From the IMG/VR virus record IMGVR_UViG_3300027832_000535, positions 1 to 27,713 of that record: a DNA stretch of 27,713 nt; one strand, given 5' to 3'. The notes beneath the pieces are model-generated. The model was not told the DNA's origin. It made no database searches and saw nothing but the letters and a program-made list of their open reading frames with translations. Numbering within the stretch: the stretch's first letter is position 1; the number at the start of each line of letters is the position of its first letter. Positions 6,417 to 21,833 of the stretch are shown in pieces. A program made the position numbers and the translations under genes. This stretch comes from a virus.

Positions 6417-7001
6417 TTAGCTGATCAATTCATATCGTGCAGTTGCTTTATTAAACATCACCAACCCCTGTTTCACTAGGGCAAAGACAATACTCTCAGA
6501 TTCGGCATGTAGTTTATTGTGTTCTGCTACGCTGGTCAGAAACAAATTTTCTATTTTATTATTTTTTTTATCGCCATCGATGTGATGTACTATTTCTCCG
6601 CGGGCGAGTCCTCGTTCTAGATAACATTCCATTACAAACAAGTGTTCCCGTATACACCTATATCCACCTTTTCTATAGGGATAATCTTTGCCTATATAAA
6701 CTTCTGGATATCCATCTTTACCATTAACCACCTTCCCTAAGTTAGGTATAAATTTATTCACAACTTTTGAATCGTATCCTGCAACACTAGCGAGTTTATT
6801 TAATCCCACTTTGCTAATACAGGTTTTACAATATGCTTTCACATTGGTATCATACTTTCCATTTCGTGCTTTGGAAAATTCTATAGTACAATTATCACAC
6901 TTCCAATGCGTTAAAGTTTTAGTTCGAGTATATTCTGTAAGTTTGGCAAACTTACTTTTTTTTGTATAGGCATTAGTTTCTGTGGTTTCAAATAGGAACA
7001 T
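6417..7001 (-). CDS. Free-standing HNH homing endonuclease (194 aa)
   Basis: The C-terminal half carries an HNH_3-type nuclease core: an REHLFVMECYLERGLARGE lead-in, then the HHIDGD motif, then NNKIENLFL and an EHNKLH tail. The middle has a four-Cys zinc knuckle (CDNC...CKTC), usual for phage DNA-binding nucleases. I chose ATG 7001 because AAGGAG lies 7 nt upstream; the in-frame ATG at 7007 is too close to it. It has its own CTAAATA box and sits just downstream of iscA, outside any ORF, so it is a free-standing mobile endonuclease next to the iron-sulfur genes. Confidence 0.88.
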   Translation of the reverse strand: MFLFETTETNAYTKKSKFAKLTEYTRTKTLTHWKCDNCTIEFSKARNGKYDTNVKAYCKTCISKVGLNKLASVAGYDSKVVNKFIPNLGKVVNGKDGYPEVYIGKDYPYRKGGYRCIREHLFVMECYLERGLARGEIVHHIDGDKKNNKIENLFLTSVAEHNKLHAESESIVFALVKQGLVMFNKATARYELIS

Positions 7002-7019
7002 GTACATTCTCCTTCATTT

Positions 7020-7068: not shown

Positions 7069-7395
7069 TTAAATACGAAAGCTACTACCACAACCACATC
7101 GGTCACGTTCGTTTGGATTTGAGAAATCAAACCCTTCATTTAATCCATTACGTATCCAATCTACGGTCATACCATCTAAGTATGCTAGTCCTTTGGCATC
7201 TATTAACACTACAAATTCAGGCTGAGCAAAATTGGTTACGCCTGCTTCTGCTTCATACACATCTACATACTCAAAAGTATACGCCAACCCACTACATCCT
7301 GTAGTTTTAACACCTAGTCTAACTCCGTCACCGTGTCCACGATGTTTAAGAAGCTGTGTTATTTTTTGCTTAGCCTTGTCTGTTAAGGTAATCAT
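7069..7395 (-). CDS. iscA: A-type iron-sulfur carrier, IscA-like
   Basis: This 108-residue HesB/IscA protein has the three ligand cysteines: C34 in TTGCSG, and C100 and C102 in CGCG near the C-terminus (E. coli IscA 107 aa). The NPNERDRCGCGSSF ending and the short N-terminus place it nearer IscA than ErpA. IscA takes Fe-S clusters from the scaffold IscU, or iron, and passes them to apo-proteins. It is the last gene of erpA-iscU-iscA, 11 nt after iscU, with an AAGGCAG ribosome site. Its presence with its physiological partner argues for a working phage module. Confidence 0.93.
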   Translation of the reverse strand: MITLTDKAKQKITQLLKHRGHGDGVRLGVKTTGCSGLAYTFEYVDVYEAEAGVTNFAQPEFVVLIDAKGLAYLDGMTVDWIRNGLNEGFDFSNPNERDRCGCGSSFRI

Positions 7396-7406
7396 TTACG
7401 GCTGCC

Positions 7407-8813
7407 TTATGCGTTAGCGTTATCATGTTTTGATCTGTAGTCTGCCACCGCTGCTTTGATAGCGTCTTCTGCAAGAATACTACAGTGTATCTTAACAGGA
7501 GGCAGTGATAGCTCTTCTGCCAGTTCGCTGTTCTTGATCGCGCCTGCCTGATCTAGTGTCATACCTTTGACCATTTCGGTAATAAGGCTACTGGAGGCAA
7601 TGGCTGAACCACAATTATGTGAACCTACTCGTTCTGAGAAAAACACATGAGCGCCGTCTTCCAATTTAAGATCGTATACCACAACCTTCTTATCATCCCG
7701 TTCGCACCCTCTTAGTTGATTGTGATGAGTAACCGCTGACACTGACACAATTTTCATGCCATTGTGGATAAAGTTTTGTACCTGTTTCAACGAGGTATCA
7801 ATTTCTTCTACAGCTAAAAATAAGGAGTCATATCCAGCTGAAGCCAATTGTTGCTTACGATTTACCACATAATCGGATTCATCAGATCGATCCTGCATAA
7901 ATTTTGGCATATTTTTAGTGTATACTTCGATGCATTTTTTCTTGCCAGGAACAACAAAGTCTGGACTAACTGGCCCAGTACTTGATTGTATCCATACTTT
8001 ACCTGAACACCATTTTGCAGCTACGTTATTTTTTTCAAACAAGTTAATATATTTTTTTTCTATGCTAGTTGGGACGGAACGGTCTATATTCGCCATACCT
8101 TGTCTCCATTTATCCACATATACAGGATTTTCCCAATTTTTTCTGGAGGCTTCTGCCGATCGTTGTTTTTTTAACGGCAAATCCTTGCACACATATCCTG
8201 GCTTATTTTGCGGTAACACAGAGTGGTCAAACTGTGTATTCCACTCTGTCATTCTTTTGCTGTTTTTTTCTTTCAAATCAACTCTGTGTCGATTGTTAGT
8301 GAGAATCCTTAACTCATGTTCAGTGATTTCATACAGTTCTTGCCCAGCCACTAGTTGTTGTGCTTCAACTGGAGTGTTATCAGCGTTCCAAAAAATATGT
8401 TCTTTCGTACATATTAGACTAAAAGTTTTAGATTTAATATTTTTTCTACTTGTTTCTCTTTGAAACGTTACTACTAATAAATCATCAATTGTAACTGAAT
8501 GTTTGAGTACTGCTCGAATCTTTTGATTAACGATGTTAGTTCCGTTCCACGCTAATACTTCGTCACCAATGACTAGGTCACTTATTTTTTTTGATTTGGT
8601 TGGAGTATTGATTAGTGCATTACTAGTAAGGCAGCCATACGTTTTGAAACGCGCATCAATGATAACATCGTCTACGACTTTGATTTGCAACTTCATCACG
8701 TCACCACAAGCCGGGGCCCCGACCATTCCAGTACCAACGGTTTCGTTTATTTCAAACTTACCCACATTGCGTGGATTTTCGTAGTGTTCAAGTACTTTGC
8801 TTGAATATGCCAT
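7407..8813 (-). CDS. iscU: IscU iron-sulfur scaffold, interrupted by an in-frame intein
   Basis: Residues 1-60 and 401-468 together give a 128-residue protein, the length of E. coli IscU, and very similar throughout (MAYS.KV..HYENPRNVG start). The cluster ligands are C36 and D38 (ACGD), C401 (CGSAIASSS, equal to E. coli C63) and C444 (IHCSILAED). The HscA-binding LPPVK motif is intact. Residues 61-400 are an intein placed directly before the catalytic Cys. IscU assembles [2Fe-2S] and [4Fe-4S] clusters from IscS sulfur. AAGAGGAG precedes ATG 8813. erpA is 17 nt upstream and iscA 11 nt downstream. The unspliced protein should be inactive as a scaffold. Confidence 0.95.
   Translation of the reverse strand: MAYSSKVLEHYENPRNVGKFEINETVGTGMVGAPACGDVMKLQIKVVDDVIIDARFKTYGCLTSNALINTPTKSKKISDLVIGDEVLAWNGTNIVNQKIRAVLKHSVTIDDLLVVTFQRETSRKNIKSKTFSLICTKEHIFWNADNTPVEAQQLVAGQELYEITEHELRILTNNRHRVDLKEKNSKRMTEWNTQFDHSVLPQNKPGYVCKDLPLKKQRSAEASRKNWENPVYVDKWRQGMANIDRSVPTSIEKKYINLFEKNNVAAKWCSGKVWIQSSTGPVSPDFVVPGKKKCIEVYTKNMPKFMQDRSDESDYVVNRKQQLASAGYDSLFLAVEEIDTSLKQVQNFIHNGMKIVSVSAVTHHNQLRGCERDDKKVVVYDLKLEDGAHVFFSERVGSHNCGSAIASSSLITEMVKGMTLDQAGAIKNSELAEELSLPPVKIHCSILAEDAIKAAVADYRSKHDNANA
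7614..8633 (-). mobile_element. Intein (340 aa) with PD-(D/E)XK-like homing nuclease in IscU
   Basis: The element starts with Cys61 (block A, CLTSNALINTPT) and has the block B T-x-x-H signature TKEH (136-139). It ends with block F VVVYDLKLEDGAH and block G VGSHN, with C401 as the +1 nucleophile. This is a class 1 intein with all splicing residues. Between the halves, residues ~215-240 (SAEASRKNWENPVY) look like a NUMOD-type DNA-binding repeat, and ~247-340 (TSIEKKY, then SPDFVV, then CIEVY, then QQLASAGYDSLFL) look like a Vsr/EDxHD-type PD-(D/E)XK nuclease. No LAGLIDADG or HNH motif is visible. The nuclease call is the weaker part. Confidence 0.9.
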
Positions 8814-8830: not shown

Positions 8831-9160
8831 TTAAACTGAAAAACTACTTCCACACCCACATGTACTTGTAGCACCTGGATTAGAAATACTGAAGCTGTTG
8901 CCTTGCAAGTCTTCTTTATAATCTACGACCGATCCAACTAAATATTGCATACTCATAGCATCAATTAGAACAGTAACATTCTCGCGTTCTATTGTGAAGT
9001 CGTCATCATTCTGCACTTCATCTAATGTAAATCCATAAGTGAACCCGCTGCATCCACCACCTTGAACGAACGTTCTAAGTTTAATTTCAGGATTATTTTC
9101 TTCAGCAAGAAGATCTTGTATTTTTACAAATGCTGCTTCGGTTATTGTTAATTGATCCAT
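8831..9160 (-). CDS. erpA: A-type iron-sulfur carrier, ErpA-like
   Basis: This 109-residue A-type carrier has ligands C37 (GGGCSGF), C101 and C103 ([12 protein letters not shown], nearly the E. coli ErpA ending). [11 protein letters not shown] and YLVGSVVDY are ErpA signatures, distinct from the IscA-like paralogue two genes downstream. ErpA delivers [4Fe-4S] clusters to final targets. It is the first gene of erpA-iscU-iscA. ATG 9160 has no good Shine-Dalgarno of its own. It overlaps (TAATG) the end of a six-codon leader ORF that has one, so translation is probably coupled. Confidence 0.93.
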
Positions 9161-13955: not shown

Positions 13956-14176
13956 TTTAATAATTCCAGTAGATATTCGTTCTTTGTAAAAATATAATCC
14001 CAATTAAGCCTGTATATAGGAGGCTTACCGTTATCGTCGTGGTATGTACGTCTAATGTAATAATATGTTAGCCACACCCGCTTCTTACTACTAGATACTA
14101 CAGGCATCCAAGCAAACTTCTTTTCAATTCTATATTGGTCAGGAAGGTTGCTGCCGTTTTTACCGTGCCCCATCAT
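13952..14176 (-). CDS. Small conserved phage protein (74 aa)
   Basis: This Tyr/Trp/Lys-rich soluble protein has the core KKFAWMPVVSSSKKRVWLTYYY. It overlaps the glyA stop (ATGA) upstream and the next ORF (ATGA) downstream. The second ATG, at 14173, is also usable. I recognise no domain; such small ORFs are common in T4-like marine genomes. Confidence 0.6.
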   Translation of the reverse strand: MMGHGKNGSNLPDQYRIEKKFAWMPVVSSSKKRVWLTYYYIRRTYHDDNGKPPIYRLNWDYIFTKNEYLLELLK

Positions 14177-15315
14177 TTTAGGATATCAACAATAGTGTAT
14201 GCAAGTTGACGGAACCAATGTTCATCGTGACCACGAGTAGTTTCTGCGGCTGTGCCGATTCGGATACCGCTGGTCTCTACAAAGCTGCGAGGATCATTTG
14301 GAATACCGTTCTTGTTCACTGTGATATCATTTGCTTCCAATAAGTCAGCAGCAGCCCGACCACTGTGCTTGCTGTTACTCAAATCCATCAGAATAACGTG
14401 CGAATCAGTGCCACCTGTTTGTACACTAAAGCCTTCTTTAACAAACACCTCACACATTACTTGTGCGTTGCGTCTAACGGCGTGAGTGTAGTCTTTGAAC
14501 TCTTGGGTATCAGCTTCAATAAAGCACTGTGCTTTAGCTGCAATGATGTGCATTAGTGGGCCGCCTTGTGTACCTGGGAATATAGCACTATTAATCTTCT
14601 TAGTAAGTGTTTCATTATTCCAAAGTATAATGCCGCCGCGTGGTCCACGCAGTGTCTTGTGTGTAGTTGATGTAACTACATCAGCAAATGGCACAGGATT
14701 AGGATACGCACCGCCGGCAATGAGTCCACTGTAGTGTGCCATATCAATCACAAGGTAAGCACCTACACTGTCTGCGATCTCACGGAACTTTGCCCAATCA
14801 ATTACTCTAGGATACGCACTAGCCCCGGCTACAATAACATGCGGACGCACATCAAACGCTTGTGCTTGAACAGCATCATAGTCTAGGTATCCGTTAGCAC
14901 CAACACCGTAAGCATAGCAGTCGTATATCTTGCCTGAGATATTAGGTTTGCTACCGTGCGATAAGTGTCCACCACTGGCTAAGTCCATACCCAGTAAACG
15001 ATCGCCGGGATGCATCAATGCTTGATATACTGCTGTGTTGGCATTAGCACCGCTGTGCGGTTGCACGTTAGCAAATTTTGCACCGTATAGCTTGCACAGT
15101 GTATCAATAGCAAGTTGCTCAACTTCGTCCATGTTATCGCAGCCGTTATAATAACGCTTGCCCGGATAACCTTCTGCATACTTGTTGGTTAGTATGCTGC
15201 CACACAACTGCATTACTTCATCGCTGGCAAAGTTTTCACTTGCAATAAGTTCTACTGTTGAGTTTTGTCGAATCTCTTCATTCAACAAAATATTTTTAAT
15301 TCGTGTGTCAATCAT
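14173..15315 (-). CDS. glyA: Serine hydroxymethyltransferase
   Basis: This PLP enzyme converts serine and tetrahydrofolate to glycine and 5,10-methylene-THF. Seen are VELIASENFAS, the YPGKRYYNGC substrate loop, DMAHYSGLIAGG, and TSTTHKTLRGPRGG with the PLP Lys at 220. At 380 aa it is about 35-40 residues shorter than E. coli GlyA (417), trimmed mainly at the C-terminus. It starts by an ATGA overlap with the DadA-like gene. With ThyA and DHFR in the same operon it closes the thymidylate cycle. It is an unusual phage gene; T4 has ThyA and DHFR but no SHMT. Confidence 0.95.
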   Translation of the reverse strand: MIDTRIKNILLNEEIRQNSTVELIASENFASDEVMQLCGSILTNKYAEGYPGKRYYNGCDNMDEVEQLAIDTLCKLYGAKFANVQPHSGANANTAVYQALMHPGDRLLGMDLASGGHLSHGSKPNISGKIYDCYAYGVGANGYLDYDAVQAQAFDVRPHVIVAGASAYPRVIDWAKFREIADSVGAYLVIDMAHYSGLIAGGAYPNPVPFADVVTSTTHKTLRGPRGGIILWNNETLTKKINSAIFPGTQGGPLMHIIAAKAQCFIEADTQEFKDYTHAVRRNAQVMCEVFVKEGFSVQTGGTDSHVILMDLSNSKHSGRAAADLLEANDITVNKNGIPNDPRSFVETSGIRIGTAAETTRGHDEHWFRQLAYTIVDILK

Positions 15316-16568
15316 CTGTAATCCTTAATTAATTTAGTTAGTCTCACAGCAGTTGCAGGACTCAGTGTCCAACCTAAGTGGCCATGTCCAGTGTGGTAAA
15401 ACACTCTGGGGTTATTCTTACTCCGCTCTACAATAGGCATCATGTCTGGTGTCATAGGACGTAGACACGCCCACGGGGAATAGTCATGTGTATTAATCTT
15501 GGGAAAGTTAGTATGCACCCAATCCAACAGCGGTTTAATACGATCATGCCGTATATCATAGTTCTCACCAGTTAGTTCGGCAGTTCCAGCAACACGGAAT
15601 CTTCTACCCAATGTACTGGTCACAATCTTTGCTTGATCGTCTAACAAACTGGTTTGTGGTGTGTGTGCATAACTTTCGTCATCTAAGTTGATTGTGATAC
15701 TGTATCCTTTAACTGGGTATACATCAATTGTGTCTCCTGCCGTTTTAGCAAGTTCTACACTTCCTACACCACTGCTGATCACAATAGCATCGTAGAAGTC
15801 TAAGTTTTTTACGTGGGTTATTTTATCGCCAAATTTAAAGTTAACTCCGTATTTGGTTTTTAGTACTTTAGACAGTTCAGTACAGAACTTGTGTATATCT
15901 CCTACCCAGTCATCTTTGGTCCAAACACCGCCAACTAACTCGCCATCATTTTGTAATGTAGGTTCAAGCTCGTGCATCTTGTATGGAGATACTATCTGCC
16001 ACTGACAACCATTTGCTTCATACAGTTCTGTTACAGATTCAGCGTCTGCAAAATATTTGTCGTCTTTGTAGAAGTGTAGGATACCCCGGAAACTCTGATC
16101 AAACTCTATACCTTCTTCAGCAATGATCTCTCTATATAGATCACGTGAACGCATACCCATCTGGATAGTTTCGGCTGTGTTCCTTTCATACTGGTTGGTG
16201 ATGGTGTTCCACATGAACTTTGCCATCCAACGGATCTTTGCCCATTCAAACGTCGGGCGAATCAACAGTGGAGCATCCTTCTTGAACATCCACTTGATGC
16301 CTTTGGCCACGTTACCCCACGTTGTCCAGACTTCGCTATTGCTAACACTTACTTGTCCACCATTGGCGAAACTGGTGCGCATTGCAGGATAACGCTCTTG
16401 TTCGTAAACAGTTACTTTATGCCCTGCCTTGGCAAGATAATATGCTGCCAACACTCCGCTGATGCCTGCGCCGACTACTACAATATTTTTAACCACTATA
16501 TTACTCTCAGGTGTATTCCAAATGTCTCGATTATTATCTATACGAGATCGTTCTATCAAATTTATCAT
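15312..16568 (-). CDS. dadA: DadA-family FAD amino-acid dehydrogenase/oxidase
   Basis: The FAD dinucleotide fold is VVVGAGISGVLAAYYLAKAG, followed by the DadA-like SFANGGQVS and GIKWMFKKDAPL and the C-terminal W-x-LRPMTPD and HTGHGHLGWTLSPATA FAD site. DadA oxidises D-amino acids to keto acids, passing electrons to quinone. The family also contains glycine and sarcosine enzymes, so the substrate is open. Numbered from ATG 16568, the first 24 residues precede the usual start. A GTG at 16496 (GAGAG ribosome site) gives the canonical N-terminus, and a possible promoter lies in between. Stop overlaps glyA (ATGA). Confidence 0.88.
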   Translation of the reverse strand: MINLIERSRIDNNRDIWNTPESNIVVKNIVVVGAGISGVLAAYYLAKAGHKVTVYEQERYPAMRTSFANGGQVSVSNSEVWTTWGNVAKGIKWMFKKDAPLLIRPTFEWAKIRWMAKFMWNTITNQYERNTAETIQMGMRSRDLYREIIAEEGIEFDQSFRGILHFYKDDKYFADAESVTELYEANGCQWQIVSPYKMHELEPTLQNDGELVGGVWTKDDWVGDIHKFCTELSKVLKTKYGVNFKFGDKITHVKNLDFYDAIVISSGVGSVELAKTAGDTIDVYPVKGYSITINLDDESYAHTPQTSLLDDQAKIVTSTLGRRFRVAGTAELTGENYDIRHDRIKPLLDWVHTNFPKINTHDYSPWACLRPMTPDMMPIVERSKNNPRVFYHTGHGHLGWTLSPATAVRLTKLIKDYR

Positions 16569-16599
16569 GCAACGATAAGTTTACTGTCTATAATGTTAC

Positions 16600-17442
16600 T
16601 TATATCGCCATCGGAGCCTTAATTGAATCCATTGGCGTATAGTTAATTAACTTATACCCACTTGTGTTAGTAGCAAGCAATTCATCCAATGTATTAAATG
16701 CAGGCATAAGCAAATGCGGTTCCTGCATTGGCGTGCGAGTAAGTTGTTGATTGACTTGTTCCATATGATTTTGATAGATATGACAATCTCCACCGCTCCA
16801 TACAAAATCGCCTACTTGTAGTTCGCAAATTTGTGCAAGCATATGTGTAAGCAAACTGTAGCTGGCAATATTAAACGGTACGCCAAGGAACATGTCTGCA
16901 CTACGCTGATACATCTGGCAGTGTAGTTTGCCATTCATTACGCGGAACTGACTTAGTGTGTGACAAGGAGGAAGTGCCATACGATCAATTTCACTAGCAT
17001 TCCACGCACTGAGAATTAAACGCCTGCTGTTAGGATTTGTTTTAATGTCTTTGATAAGCCCAGCAATTTGATCTACACCATTAAAGTTGCGCCATTGGTA
17101 ACCATATACTGGTCCAAGTTCGCCGTCTGCATAACCTAGTGCTTTACCTTGTGCATTAGCATTAGCAGTCCAAATAGTTGTCTTATCTGTAAGTTCCTCA
17201 CGGGGCTTTTCAAACGTGCGTTCAGCAAGCCTTCGCTCGTCTGTGCTACCTTCCAAGAACCATAGCAACTCGCCGACTACACTACGCCAGGCAAGTTTCT
17301 TTGTAGTAACAGCAGGAAATCCATCCTGCAAATTAAAACGCATCTGATAACCAAACACACTGCGTGTACCTATTCCTGTGCGATCACTAACATTTTCACC
17401 GTTAGCTAAAATGTATTCAAGAGCGTCTAAATATTGTTTCAT
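16600..17442 (-). CDS. thyA: Thymidylate synthase (ThyA)
   Basis: This enzyme methylates dUMP to dTMP using 5,10-methylene-THF, giving dihydrofolate. The catalytic Cys160 is in LPPCHTLSQF. QRSADMFLGVPFNIASY and GDCHIYQNH (dUMP-binding) and the N-terminal DRTGIGTRSVFG loop are intact. At 280 aa it is slightly longer than E. coli ThyA (264) because of a short insertion around 75-95. It overlaps the DHFR stop by ATGA. It is the classic folate-dependent ThyA, not ThyX, so it needs DHFR to recycle dihydrofolate, and DHFR is the neighbouring gene. Confidence 0.97.
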   Translation of the reverse strand: MKQYLDALEYILANGENVSDRTGIGTRSVFGYQMRFNLQDGFPAVTTKKLAWRSVVGELLWFLEGSTDERRLAERTFEKPREELTDKTTIWTANANAQGKALGYADGELGPVYGYQWRNFNGVDQIAGLIKDIKTNPNSRRLILSAWNASEIDRMALPPCHTLSQFRVMNGKLHCQMYQRSADMFLGVPFNIASYSLLTHMLAQICELQVGDFVWSGGDCHIYQNHMEQVNQQLTRTPMQEPHLLMPAFNTLDELLATNTSGYKLINYTPMDSIKAPMAI

Positions 17443-17906
17443 TTTCTAACCCATTTCTCAACATAAATGTCAGTTTCTGGGCTTACGCTGTCAAGATCAA
17501 ACTGTTCTAAAATTTTAGTACCTGGAAGGCTAACGTCACAATCGTATTCGCCTTCAATACGGCTAAGCCATAGCTCGTCAATGATATCCAAACAGTGTTC
17601 AATTAACTGCCCCCCACCAATGATCCAAACTGGATGCTCAAGGTTTAAGTCTACAATTTGTTGTTTAACCCCTTGTCCAAATGTATATGTTGCACCTTCC
17701 ACTTTAGTAGAACTTACAACTATGTTTTGTCGACCCGGCAACGGTTTAACAGGCAAACTATTCCAAGTATTACGCCCCATAACAATTGCTTGTCCGTAGG
17801 TCATTTTCTTAAACCATTGTAGGTCTGCACGATTATGCAGCCACGGCATATCACCGTTCTTGCCAATGCCCCAATTTTCGTCACATGCTAGAATTGCTCT
17901 AATCAT
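17439..17906 (-). CDS. folA: Dihydrofolate reductase
   Basis: This enzyme reduces dihydrofolate to tetrahydrofolate with NADPH. Motifs in order: ACDENWGIGKNGDMPW (Met20 loop), the catalytic Asp28 in NRADLQWFKKMT, VMGRNTWNSLP (NADPH), the IIGGGQLI nucleotide-binding loop, and a C-terminal beta strand IYVEKWVRK. At 155 aa it matches the E. coli enzyme (159). It is 1 nt after the small upstream ORF and overlaps thyA by ATGA, giving 1:1 coupling of the two steps. Confidence 0.96.
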   Translation of the reverse strand: MIRAILACDENWGIGKNGDMPWLHNRADLQWFKKMTYGQAIVMGRNTWNSLPVKPLPGRQNIVVSSTKVEGATYTFGQGVKQQIVDLNLEHPVWIIGGGQLIEHCLDIIDELWLSRIEGEYDCDVSLPGTKILEQFDLDSVSPETDIYVEKWVRK

Positions 17907-21308: not shown

Positions 21309-21316
21309 TACTTATC
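21309..21316 (-). promoter_or_regulatory. Late-type promoter box variant (GATAAGTA)
   Basis: It is the same variant as at 5681-5688, 25 nt before ATG 21283, overlapping the end of the upstream gene. A good ribosome site follows. Confidence 0.35.
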
Positions 21317-21833
21317 TCAGGAACTCTCTCCAATCCAGGTCATATTGGATTGAATCTATTTTATGAACCCCAATAAGAAATAAAACGTAGGAACTGACGC
21401 TGCTGCCGCGGCCTACACCCCAAACGATATTATTCTCACGCATAAAGTCCACAAGATACTTCATGTAGCATAACAGTGGCAACATTCCACGTTCGTCAAA
21501 TGCATCAAACTCTTGTGTCAAACGTTTCTTTTTTTCTATAGTATTGCATTGCGCTAAACAAAAGTCATAGATAGGATATGTTTTATATTCATCAGGCATG
21601 AACCATTCCGACTGTAACGCACCGTCAAAAGTCTTTTGGTCTACATCTAGAGGAATATATTTTGTAAGTTCAGGGAGATATTGTTCACGCATTGCTGCGT
21701 TAAACTTTTCTATATCATCTGAAGGATCACATAGTACTACATGACACTTGTCAACATGACCACTATAGATCATATCAACGAGGTCGCAATTAGTAAAGCG
21801 TGGAATACCTAGTTCATCTGTTTTCATAAGCAT
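21312..21833 (-). CDS. DnaE-like palm fragment with GRGS motif (173 aa)
   Basis: The C-terminal ~50 residues (IVWGVGRGSSVSSYVLFLIGV then IDSIQYDLDWREFLR) match the PGRGS motif region of bacterial DNA polymerase III alpha subunits. The N-terminal part is not a recognisable PHP domain and the catalytic Asp pairs of DnaE are not visible. It is therefore a stand-alone fragment, maybe a nucleotide- or DNA-binding accessory; similar short ORFs are known in T4-like marine genomes. ATG 21833 and ATG 21827 (MKTDELG) are both possible; neither has a strong ribosome site. Confidence 0.65.
   Translation of the reverse strand: MLMKTDELGIPRFTNCDLVDMIYSGHVDKCHVVLCDPSDDIEKFNAAMREQYLPELTKYIPLDVDQKTFDGALQSEWFMPDEYKTYPIYDFCLAQCNTIEKKKRLTQEFDAFDERGMLPLLCYMKYLVDFMRENNIVWGVGRGSSVSSYVLFLIGVHKIDSIQYDLDWREFLR

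Follow-up and report, generated by a model that had tools for sequence, protein, structure and literature searches.

An iscU gene of phages very likely interrupted by a mobile class-1-type intein and, in related phages, by a putative ribosomal stop-hop

The iscU gene is already known as an auxiliary gene of phages (PMC5332604). In the locus described here it encodes 340 additional residues directly in front of a conserved cysteine. The window, i.e., the whole stretch of DNA that was analysed, corresponds to positions 1-27,713 of the 27.7-kb IMG/VR virus record IMGVR_UViG_3300027832_000535 and carries phage genes for endolysin, PhoH, clamp loader and a virion structural protein, whereby the clamp loader has its closest annotated relatives in PA5oct-like Pseudomonas phages (54%). 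Within the window, iscU is placed between genes for an ErpA-like and an IscA-like A-type carrier (Table 1), the latter also matching the IscA model TIGR02011 with 122.9 bits, which is under the cut-off of 150.6. A search of Rfam with the window gave no match.

The Pfam NifU_N match to the precursor (E=3.6e-46) falls into two stretches that flank the insert, leaving precursor residues 1-60 and 401-468 as IscU, and the NCBIfam iscU model matches with E=4.1e-56 and 188.4 bits, slightly below its cut-off of 192.4. Joined, the two exteins comprise 128 residues, and the N-extein holds the first cysteine motif, APACGDV, without interruption. The insert starts with CLTS and its C-terminal junction reads GSHN/CGSA (here and below, a slash marks the junction), the first codon of the C-extein (7611-7613) encoding Cys+1 (C401), which we take to be a cluster ligand of IscU, with the ligand numbering being general knowledge. 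The class rules for inteins are general background as well, and judged by these the insert has the sequence and predicted structural features of a class 1 intein: Cys1, a block B TxxH motif, a C-terminal His-Asn, Cys+1, a predicted Hint fold and intein-free homologues. C1, T76, H79, H329, H339 and N340, together with E192, D225 and E236, are invariant in all 30 copies that are distinct at the nucleotide level, and the 29 distinct complete inteins are 337-342 residues long. Pfam Hint-type models matched weakly and below their curated cut-offs, Hint being met in 21 of 23 members at E up to 1. G+C amounts to 36.7% in the intein, 45.5% in the exteins and 38.2% in the window. An earlier reading of the sequence alone had claimed a 340-residue intein at 7614-8633, exteins 1-60 and 401-468 rejoining to a 128-residue IscU, Cys1 in block A, TKEH at precursor residues 136-139, His-Asn at 399-400 with C401 as the +1 residue, and insertion at the cluster-ligand cysteine (YG/CGSA). 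The insert and its coordinates held on the grounds of open reading frame, profiles and junction; the extein composition held, with the rejoining itself being inferred; the splicing residues held at motif level, being conserved in 30/30; and the insertion site held, as the same junction recurs.

Table 1. Positions of the features in the window and, in the last line, in related loci
Feature	Position	Strand	Basis or conservation
iscU precursor ORF with in-frame intein, 468 aa	7407..8813	minus	ORF and profile matches
N-extein, IscU residues 1-60, last residues FKTYG	8634..8813	minus	
Intein, 340 aa, precursor residues 61-400	7614..8633	minus	
Intein block A with Cys1, CLTSNALINTPTK	8595..8633	minus	Cys1 in 30/30 distinct inteins
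Intein block B TKEH (T76, H79; precursor 136-139)	8397..8408	minus	T76 and H79 in 30/30
Helical linker, intein residues 104-184	8082..8324	minus	helices in predicted models
Predicted Vsr/I-Bth0305I-like nuclease domain, intein residues 185-289, invariant E192, D225, E236	7767..8081	minus	predicted structure and conservation
Intein C-terminal blocks F/G, last residues VGSHN (H329, H339, N340)	7614..7685	minus	30/30
C-extein, IscU residues 401-468 and stop	7407..7613	minus	
ErpA-like A-type carrier, iscU neighbour	8831..9160	minus	NF010147 161.4 bits, cut-off 117
IscA-like A-type carrier, iscU neighbour	7069..7395	minus	TIGR00049 99 bits, cut-off 58.8
Putative stop-hop (hop) alleles of iscU	L051:6061-6127; also L093, L110, L200, L248, L255, L259, L263, L265 and 71 further loci		

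When IMG/VR was scanned with the precursor, at least 600 stretches were returned, whose best 80 loci comprised 8 with and 72 without the insert. The intein as query yielded 37 loci and the intein alignment 40, and in total about 40 other IMG/VR contigs were found with this intein in an identical position (60-99% identity). The DNA pattern HN/CGSAxASSSxxTE was met in 36 contigs, 35 of them already among those found with the intein alignment; the remaining contig has this intein at its end, and no different intein was seen at this IscU site. In 43 aligned rows (the window and repeat loci being counted, some from the same contig, with L113 lacking the C-end and L115 and L116 the N-end) the junction is identical wherever it is covered, FKTYG, FKAYG or FKTFG preceding Cys1 and GSHN preceding CGSA, and Cys+1 is present in all 42 rows that cover the C-terminal junction. 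L117 and L118 are not among these rows, but are part of the larger comparison from which the intein-free rows were counted. The uninterrupted site is found in 188 intein-free rows (161 distinct extein stretches); since the corresponding DNA pattern had at least 120 matches in IMG/VR, no intein frequency is given. Because the same insert and junction recur across loci while many phage iscU genes are without it, the insert is not a matter of chance. Homologues without the insert would have spoken against an intein had the insert lacked intein motifs; they were found, yet the motifs are there, hence the interpretation was not refuted on this point.

Carriers in bacteria were not detected: among one genome each of 84,980 prokaryote species the HN/CGSA DNA pattern, which requires an exact match, was absent, and the intein alignment gave 17 pattern matches and no confirmed relative. 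Annotated phages contributed 8 records with IscU-like matches, none of which matched 80% of the query at a single location. Phage C48C1 possesses an uninterrupted NifU-like gene, and L379 (CAKLQH020000011.1), named Acinetobacter phage MD-2021a, carries iscR-iscS-iscU-iscA-hscB-hscA-fdx, i.e., a full isc operon, for which reason it probably represents bacterial DNA. Within the open-access literature searched (titles and abstract starts) neither an IscU intein nor a NifU intein was found, which is consistent with the earlier statement that no IscU intein is known.

The inteins of L005 and L093 share 99.8% nucleotide identity, while their exteins share 75.9% (N-extein, 145 nt aligned) and 86.9% (C-extein); the N-extein of L093 is a frame-broken hop allele of the kind described below, wherefore the comparison spans only part of it. 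As near-identical inteins occupy diverged exteins, the intein must be assumed to move. Across 403 of 435 pairs (32 with fewer than 100 aligned extein codons were left out) intein and extein identities barely correlate (rho 0.094, p 0.059). A tree of the exteins (27 rows with and 133 without the intein) requires 16 changes of intein state, as compared to a shuffled mean of 25.3; it is poorly supported, its starred branches forcing only 2 changes. A selfish and recently mobile intein is the simplest and a likely reading of this distribution, with homing as such being inferred.

For 30 distinct copies, pN/pS was found to be 0.258 for the Hint part, 0.328 for the linker, 0.255 for the nuclease and 0.236 for the exteins, and these values argue against decay of the splicing as well as of the nuclease domain. 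The alternative that the element has decayed and the gene is dead would be in line with the broken C-exteins of two intein-bearing alleles (L008, nonsense; L111, frameshift), which may indicate that iscU is dispensable in some phages or may merely be sequence errors. Against this alternative, which is very improbable, stand the reading frame of the window, which is open throughout, the catalytic residues kept in all 30 distinct inteins, and pN/pS values of about 0.24-0.33 in every part. A second alternative accepts the intein but assumes that its splicing is conditional (redox or metal) and regulates the supply of Fe-S scaffold. In favour of this count the identity of Cys+1 with the cluster ligand and the SufB inteins discussed in PMC8891592, in whose exteins metal-chelating residues are conserved; against it, no regulatory feature was seen among the motifs, these being all that was considered, and the scattered, transferable distribution suits a selfish element. 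Conditional splicing is thus regarded as unlikely, and the earlier suggestion that Fe-S assembly is gated by splicing, or that splicing responds to redox state or metal, remains possible, without data in its support.

The AlphaFold model of the intein (23 rows; pLDDT 71, pTM 0.49) superimposes best by Z on 2lwy (Z 16.2, rmsd 1.9, 127 residues) and matches many inteins with Z 12-15, the best Foldseek E being 6.6e-5. As 2lwy belongs to the bacterial intein-like domains, it has to be considered that the Hint-fold domain might cleave without ligating and leave IscU in two pieces. This is contradicted by the C-terminal His-Asn being invariant in 30/30, by Cys+1 in the 42 covering rows, by intein-free alleles in which precisely the insert is missing, by the purifying selection on the exteins (pN/pS as given above) and by an insertion site inside the conserved enzyme core; cleavage without ligation is accordingly held to be very unlikely. 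According to the models, the intein is predicted to combine a Hint fold and a nuclease resembling Vsr/I-Bth0305I, the nuclease activity being inferred. The nuclease part modelled alone (residues 104-296, 22 rows; pLDDT 80.5, pTM 0.60) has I-Bth0305I (3r3p) as its top match with Z 10.1, followed by NGO0050 (8.9) and Vsr (8.5), while two chains of the Toxoplasma mitoribosome are level with Vsr (8.4 and 8.3); the match list also holds mitoribosomal and other chains at Z 7-8, and the best Foldseek E is only 1.5e-3. A sequence profile search of PDB chains did not find I-Bth0305I/Vsr-type proteins; profile matches with ABC-transporter proteins and with a designed TIM barrel are apparently spurious. 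EDxHD enzymes possess E..D..H..D active-site residues, as is generally known. Their histidine was not seen by eye in the nuclease stretch, no His occurring between residues 236 and 259 of the window sequence, and on account of this absence the nuclease is possibly altered or inactive. That the helical linker binds DNA is conceivable, yet no more than a guess. As a separate observation, L006 harbours between iscU and iscA a free-standing gene (L006:7419-8180) with weak matches to Vsr/DUF559-like endonucleases, whose PDY..IIEIYGDYWH resembles the intein nuclease by eye but has kept the His.

The insert is hence very likely (about 0.94) a mobile class-1-type intein. Sequence, motifs, predicted fold, recurrence with exact junction, intein-free alleles, selection on both domains and horizontal transfer are shown and support the earlier intein interpretation, while splicing, nuclease activity and homing are inferred. 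In the proposed course of events the precursor would be translated in a single frame, whereupon Cys1 of the intein would activate the preceding Gly-Cys bond by an N-S shift and Cys+1 (C401) would take over the N-extein. Cyclisation of Asn340, aided by His339, would then allow the exteins to rejoin to the 128-residue IscU, with the restored cysteine serving as cluster ligand. The Vsr-like nuclease would presumably cut intein-free iscU of co-infecting phages, into which the intein would be copied.

Inteins as such are known, and among known systems the mycobacterial SufB inteins (M. tuberculosis SufB, PMC8891592) are alike in residing in an Fe-S scaffold and in the canonical splicing chemistry proposed for them, but belong to SufB instead of the IscU family and to a bacterial chromosome instead of a phage. 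In IscU, the +1 cysteine itself is the cluster ligand, the ligands again being general knowledge, and an IscU intein whose splice nucleophile would become an Fe-S ligand is what is new here, none having been met in the open-access literature searched. The phage homing endonucleases of the I-Bth0305I/Vsr type with their EDxHD motif (PMC3943268) share the predicted fold, the phage setting and the invariant acidic residues with the nuclease of the IscU intein, whereas the latter is embedded in an intein and the signature His was not seen. The cyanophage-like gp41-1 intein (6qaz) gives a weak block A match (E 0.0097) and shares the Hint fold (Z 13.6), but is a 128-residue chain without such a nuclease; it is generally known to sit in a different host gene.

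A second interruption, absent from the window, was identified in relatives by frame checks of intein-bearing loci and breaks iscU exactly after APACG. In an unselected set (loci from the precursor, intein, junction-pattern and uninterrupted-site scans plus the window, 12 rows having been excluded on account of contig ends) 9 of 188 distinct alleles with enough sequence are broken directly after APACG, the only other breaks being the nonsense codon of L008 and the frameshift of L111; L117 was flagged solely because the start motif applied did not cover its MAYG, which is not a break. A scan of IMG/VR for VGAPACG followed by TRR returned at least 120 stretches, and among all loci collected up to that point 78 distinct matches lie in iscU and 6 elsewhere. 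All 78 iscU matches are a stop at this position although the pattern allows TGG, and the downstream frame resumes as GDV in 77/77 rows with a recognisable frame, L267 ending too soon. A fixed pattern finally defined 80 distinct hop alleles, most of which had been fetched by the pattern demanding TRR (L094 repeats L093 and is not counted).

In each of the 80, a stop codon (TGA 39, TAG 27, TAA 14) directly follows the take-off Gly codon. The next GGN begins 3, 4, 5, 6 or 7 nt after the first base of the stop in 3, 39, 19, 16 and 3 alleles respectively (0-4 nt after the stop), and with this GGN the protein resumes as GDVM or GDVL in any of the three frames. GGN to GGN holds for 80/80, as the pattern requires, and likewise for 77 rows where it was not required; the third base of take-off and landing codon is the same in only 30/80, which is not striking. 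Over 60 downstream codons pN/pS amounts to 0.188 in 68 hop alleles and to 0.181 in 80 of the 148 normal alleles collected, and this similarity suggests that the sequence beyond the stop is translated. As a caveat, hop alleles are less constrained in the 17-codon block before the hop (0.235 vs 0.111) and in the 7 codons after it (0.106 vs 0.026). In a tree computed from the downstream sequence (68 hop and 153 normal rows) hop alleles are scattered, with 39 changes against a shuffled mean of 58.5 and 3 forced by starred branches. L093, its repeat L094 and L110 bear both devices, intein and hop.

Three simpler explanations were rejected. A split gene with reinitiation does not serve as the general case, as 12/80 alleles have no ATG, GTG or TTG within the first 20 downstream codons and as Gly-Asp-Val is kept in 77/77 downstream frames; for the individual allele reinitiation is not excluded, a possible start being present there in 68/80. 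A +1 or -1 frameshift of the ordinary kind would not suit alleles whose gaps comprise 3, 4, 5, 6 and 7 nt, and sequencing error or random decay is countered by the unselected set, where 9 out of 11 breaks (frame or nonsense) fall on one codon.

Upstream of the stop, a hairpin with a stem of 10-11 bp was identified, pairing in 97.2% of cells (alignment of 45 distinct 54-nt rows drawn from the 80 hop alleles), with the 14 unpaired cells all located at the innermost pair. Four pairs show two-sided changes (e.g., C-G 21, A-U 20, U-A 3, G-C 1), and doubly changed cells number 46, as compared to 16.9 in shuffles (0/500 as high) and 0-6 when the pairing is slid. Two other measures stand out less, the number of pairs with two-sided change being reached by 100/500 and that of further pair types by 20/500 shuffles, and the shuffles leave the relatedness among rows in place. 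The mean folding energy is -25.1 kcal/mol for 40 distinct hop rows and -12.6 for 123 normal rows (intein-bearing ones included), and a Shine-Dalgarno-like (SD-like) motif lies directly 5' of the stem in 40/40 hop rows but in 17/123 normal rows. When the unselected set was reclassified, hairpin and SD-like motif were present in 9/9 stop alleles, and the hairpin was present in 4 of 177 non-stop alleles (2 rows were dropped, the motif not being found), three of which (L009, L100, L103) bear the intein and the SD-like motif. In these three the gap has perhaps been erased by co-conversion during homing, which is an inference. Downstream of the hop the first 30 nt are slightly more stable (-3.3 vs -1.8 kcal/mol), and no clear difference in structure was seen over longer stretches.

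Among the 75 hop loci whose upstream sequence spans at least 600 nt, a putative HNH endonuclease gene precedes iscU in 56 and is absent in 19 (L110 and L259 among them); of the normal intein-free loci 1 of 150 has it, as a weak match. Its end lies no more than about 40 nt from iscU in 57 of the 59 hop loci in which it was found and about 450 nt away in 2; in L281 the distance is about 12 nt. The HNH assignment is weak: Pfam HNH stays below its cut-off, phrog_1271 (HNH endonuclease) matches with E 0.0054, and phrog_5104, whose function is unknown, with E 9.5e-10. Among intein-bearing rows labelled normal 6/29 match the gene; L094 and L137 are mislabelled hop alleles and L097 and L111 weak or distant, so that L006 and L103 remain. 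L006 has a 29-codon iscU fragment, then the putative HNH gene (L006:5412-6008) and then a full intein-bearing iscU.

In T4 gene 60, a GGA take-off codon is followed by a stop and a GGA landing codon, accompanied by a 5' stem-loop, an SD-like element and a neighbouring homing endonuclease, against which the insert may protect (PMC5009743, PMC3014915, PMC11194080); gene 60 additionally has a nascent-peptide signal, KKYK. The hop alleles share the Gly take-off with immediate stop, the Gly landing, the 5' stem-loop, the SD-like element and the linked putative homing-endonuclease gene. They differ in a gap of 3-7 nt instead of 50 nt, in the gene affected, in occurring in many phages, in a landing codon that often deviates at its third base, and in the SD-like element, which is located 5' of the stem and not in the gap. 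By analogy the hop alleles are likely to combine gene 60-like ribosomal bypass with a homing-endonuclease cassette, bypass and cleavage both being inferred. With such a bypass iscU would remain readable and at the same time withstand the linked endonuclease, though neither effect has been shown.

Other cases of bypass are known from Magnusiomyces mitochondria and, as a likely short-gap case, from Streptomyces phage Hau3; bypassing over short distances has long been presumed, with no natural in-frame stop-hop known (PMC5009743). The iscU relatives supply many candidates for such a short-distance stop-hop, and in the small part of the bypass and recoding literature that was sampled IscU does not occur. 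To our knowledge, no second natural cassette of homing endonuclease plus bypass is known besides T4 gene 60; if true, the hop would be the second, short and flexible, with landing in any frame. A bolder reading, likewise considered likely, is that phage iscU is a homing hot spot whose two cysteine motifs are both interrupted by devices that restore the protein after transcription: an intein at the second Cys and, at the Gly behind the first in at least 80 related alleles, a stop-hop (GGN, stop, 0 to 4 nt, GGN) that would be driven by stem-loop and SD-like motif and linked to a homing endonuclease. With uninterrupted, protein-spliced and putatively ribosome-hopped alleles of one gene at hand, the two presumed escape routes become directly comparable.

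The neighbourhood of iscU is rich in homing-type endonucleases. In the window, a free-standing HNH_3 endonuclease gene (6417-7007, minus strand) adjoins the iscA-like gene, and farther away a short GIY-YIG-like ORF (354-542, minus; Pfam SegE E 0.027, below cut-off) overlaps the end of the ORF at 536-1099 (phrog_7595). Apart from these, a stand-alone piece of DNA polymerase III alpha (173 aa; 21312-21833, minus) covers positions 12-171 of the 171 of phrog_11127, i.e., nearly all of it. Finally, the minus strand at 14173-17906 carries a run of SHMT and DAO-family oxidoreductase genes, followed by genes that by eye resemble thymidylate synthase and dihydrofolate reductase, and this region may constitute a C1/thymidylate module.
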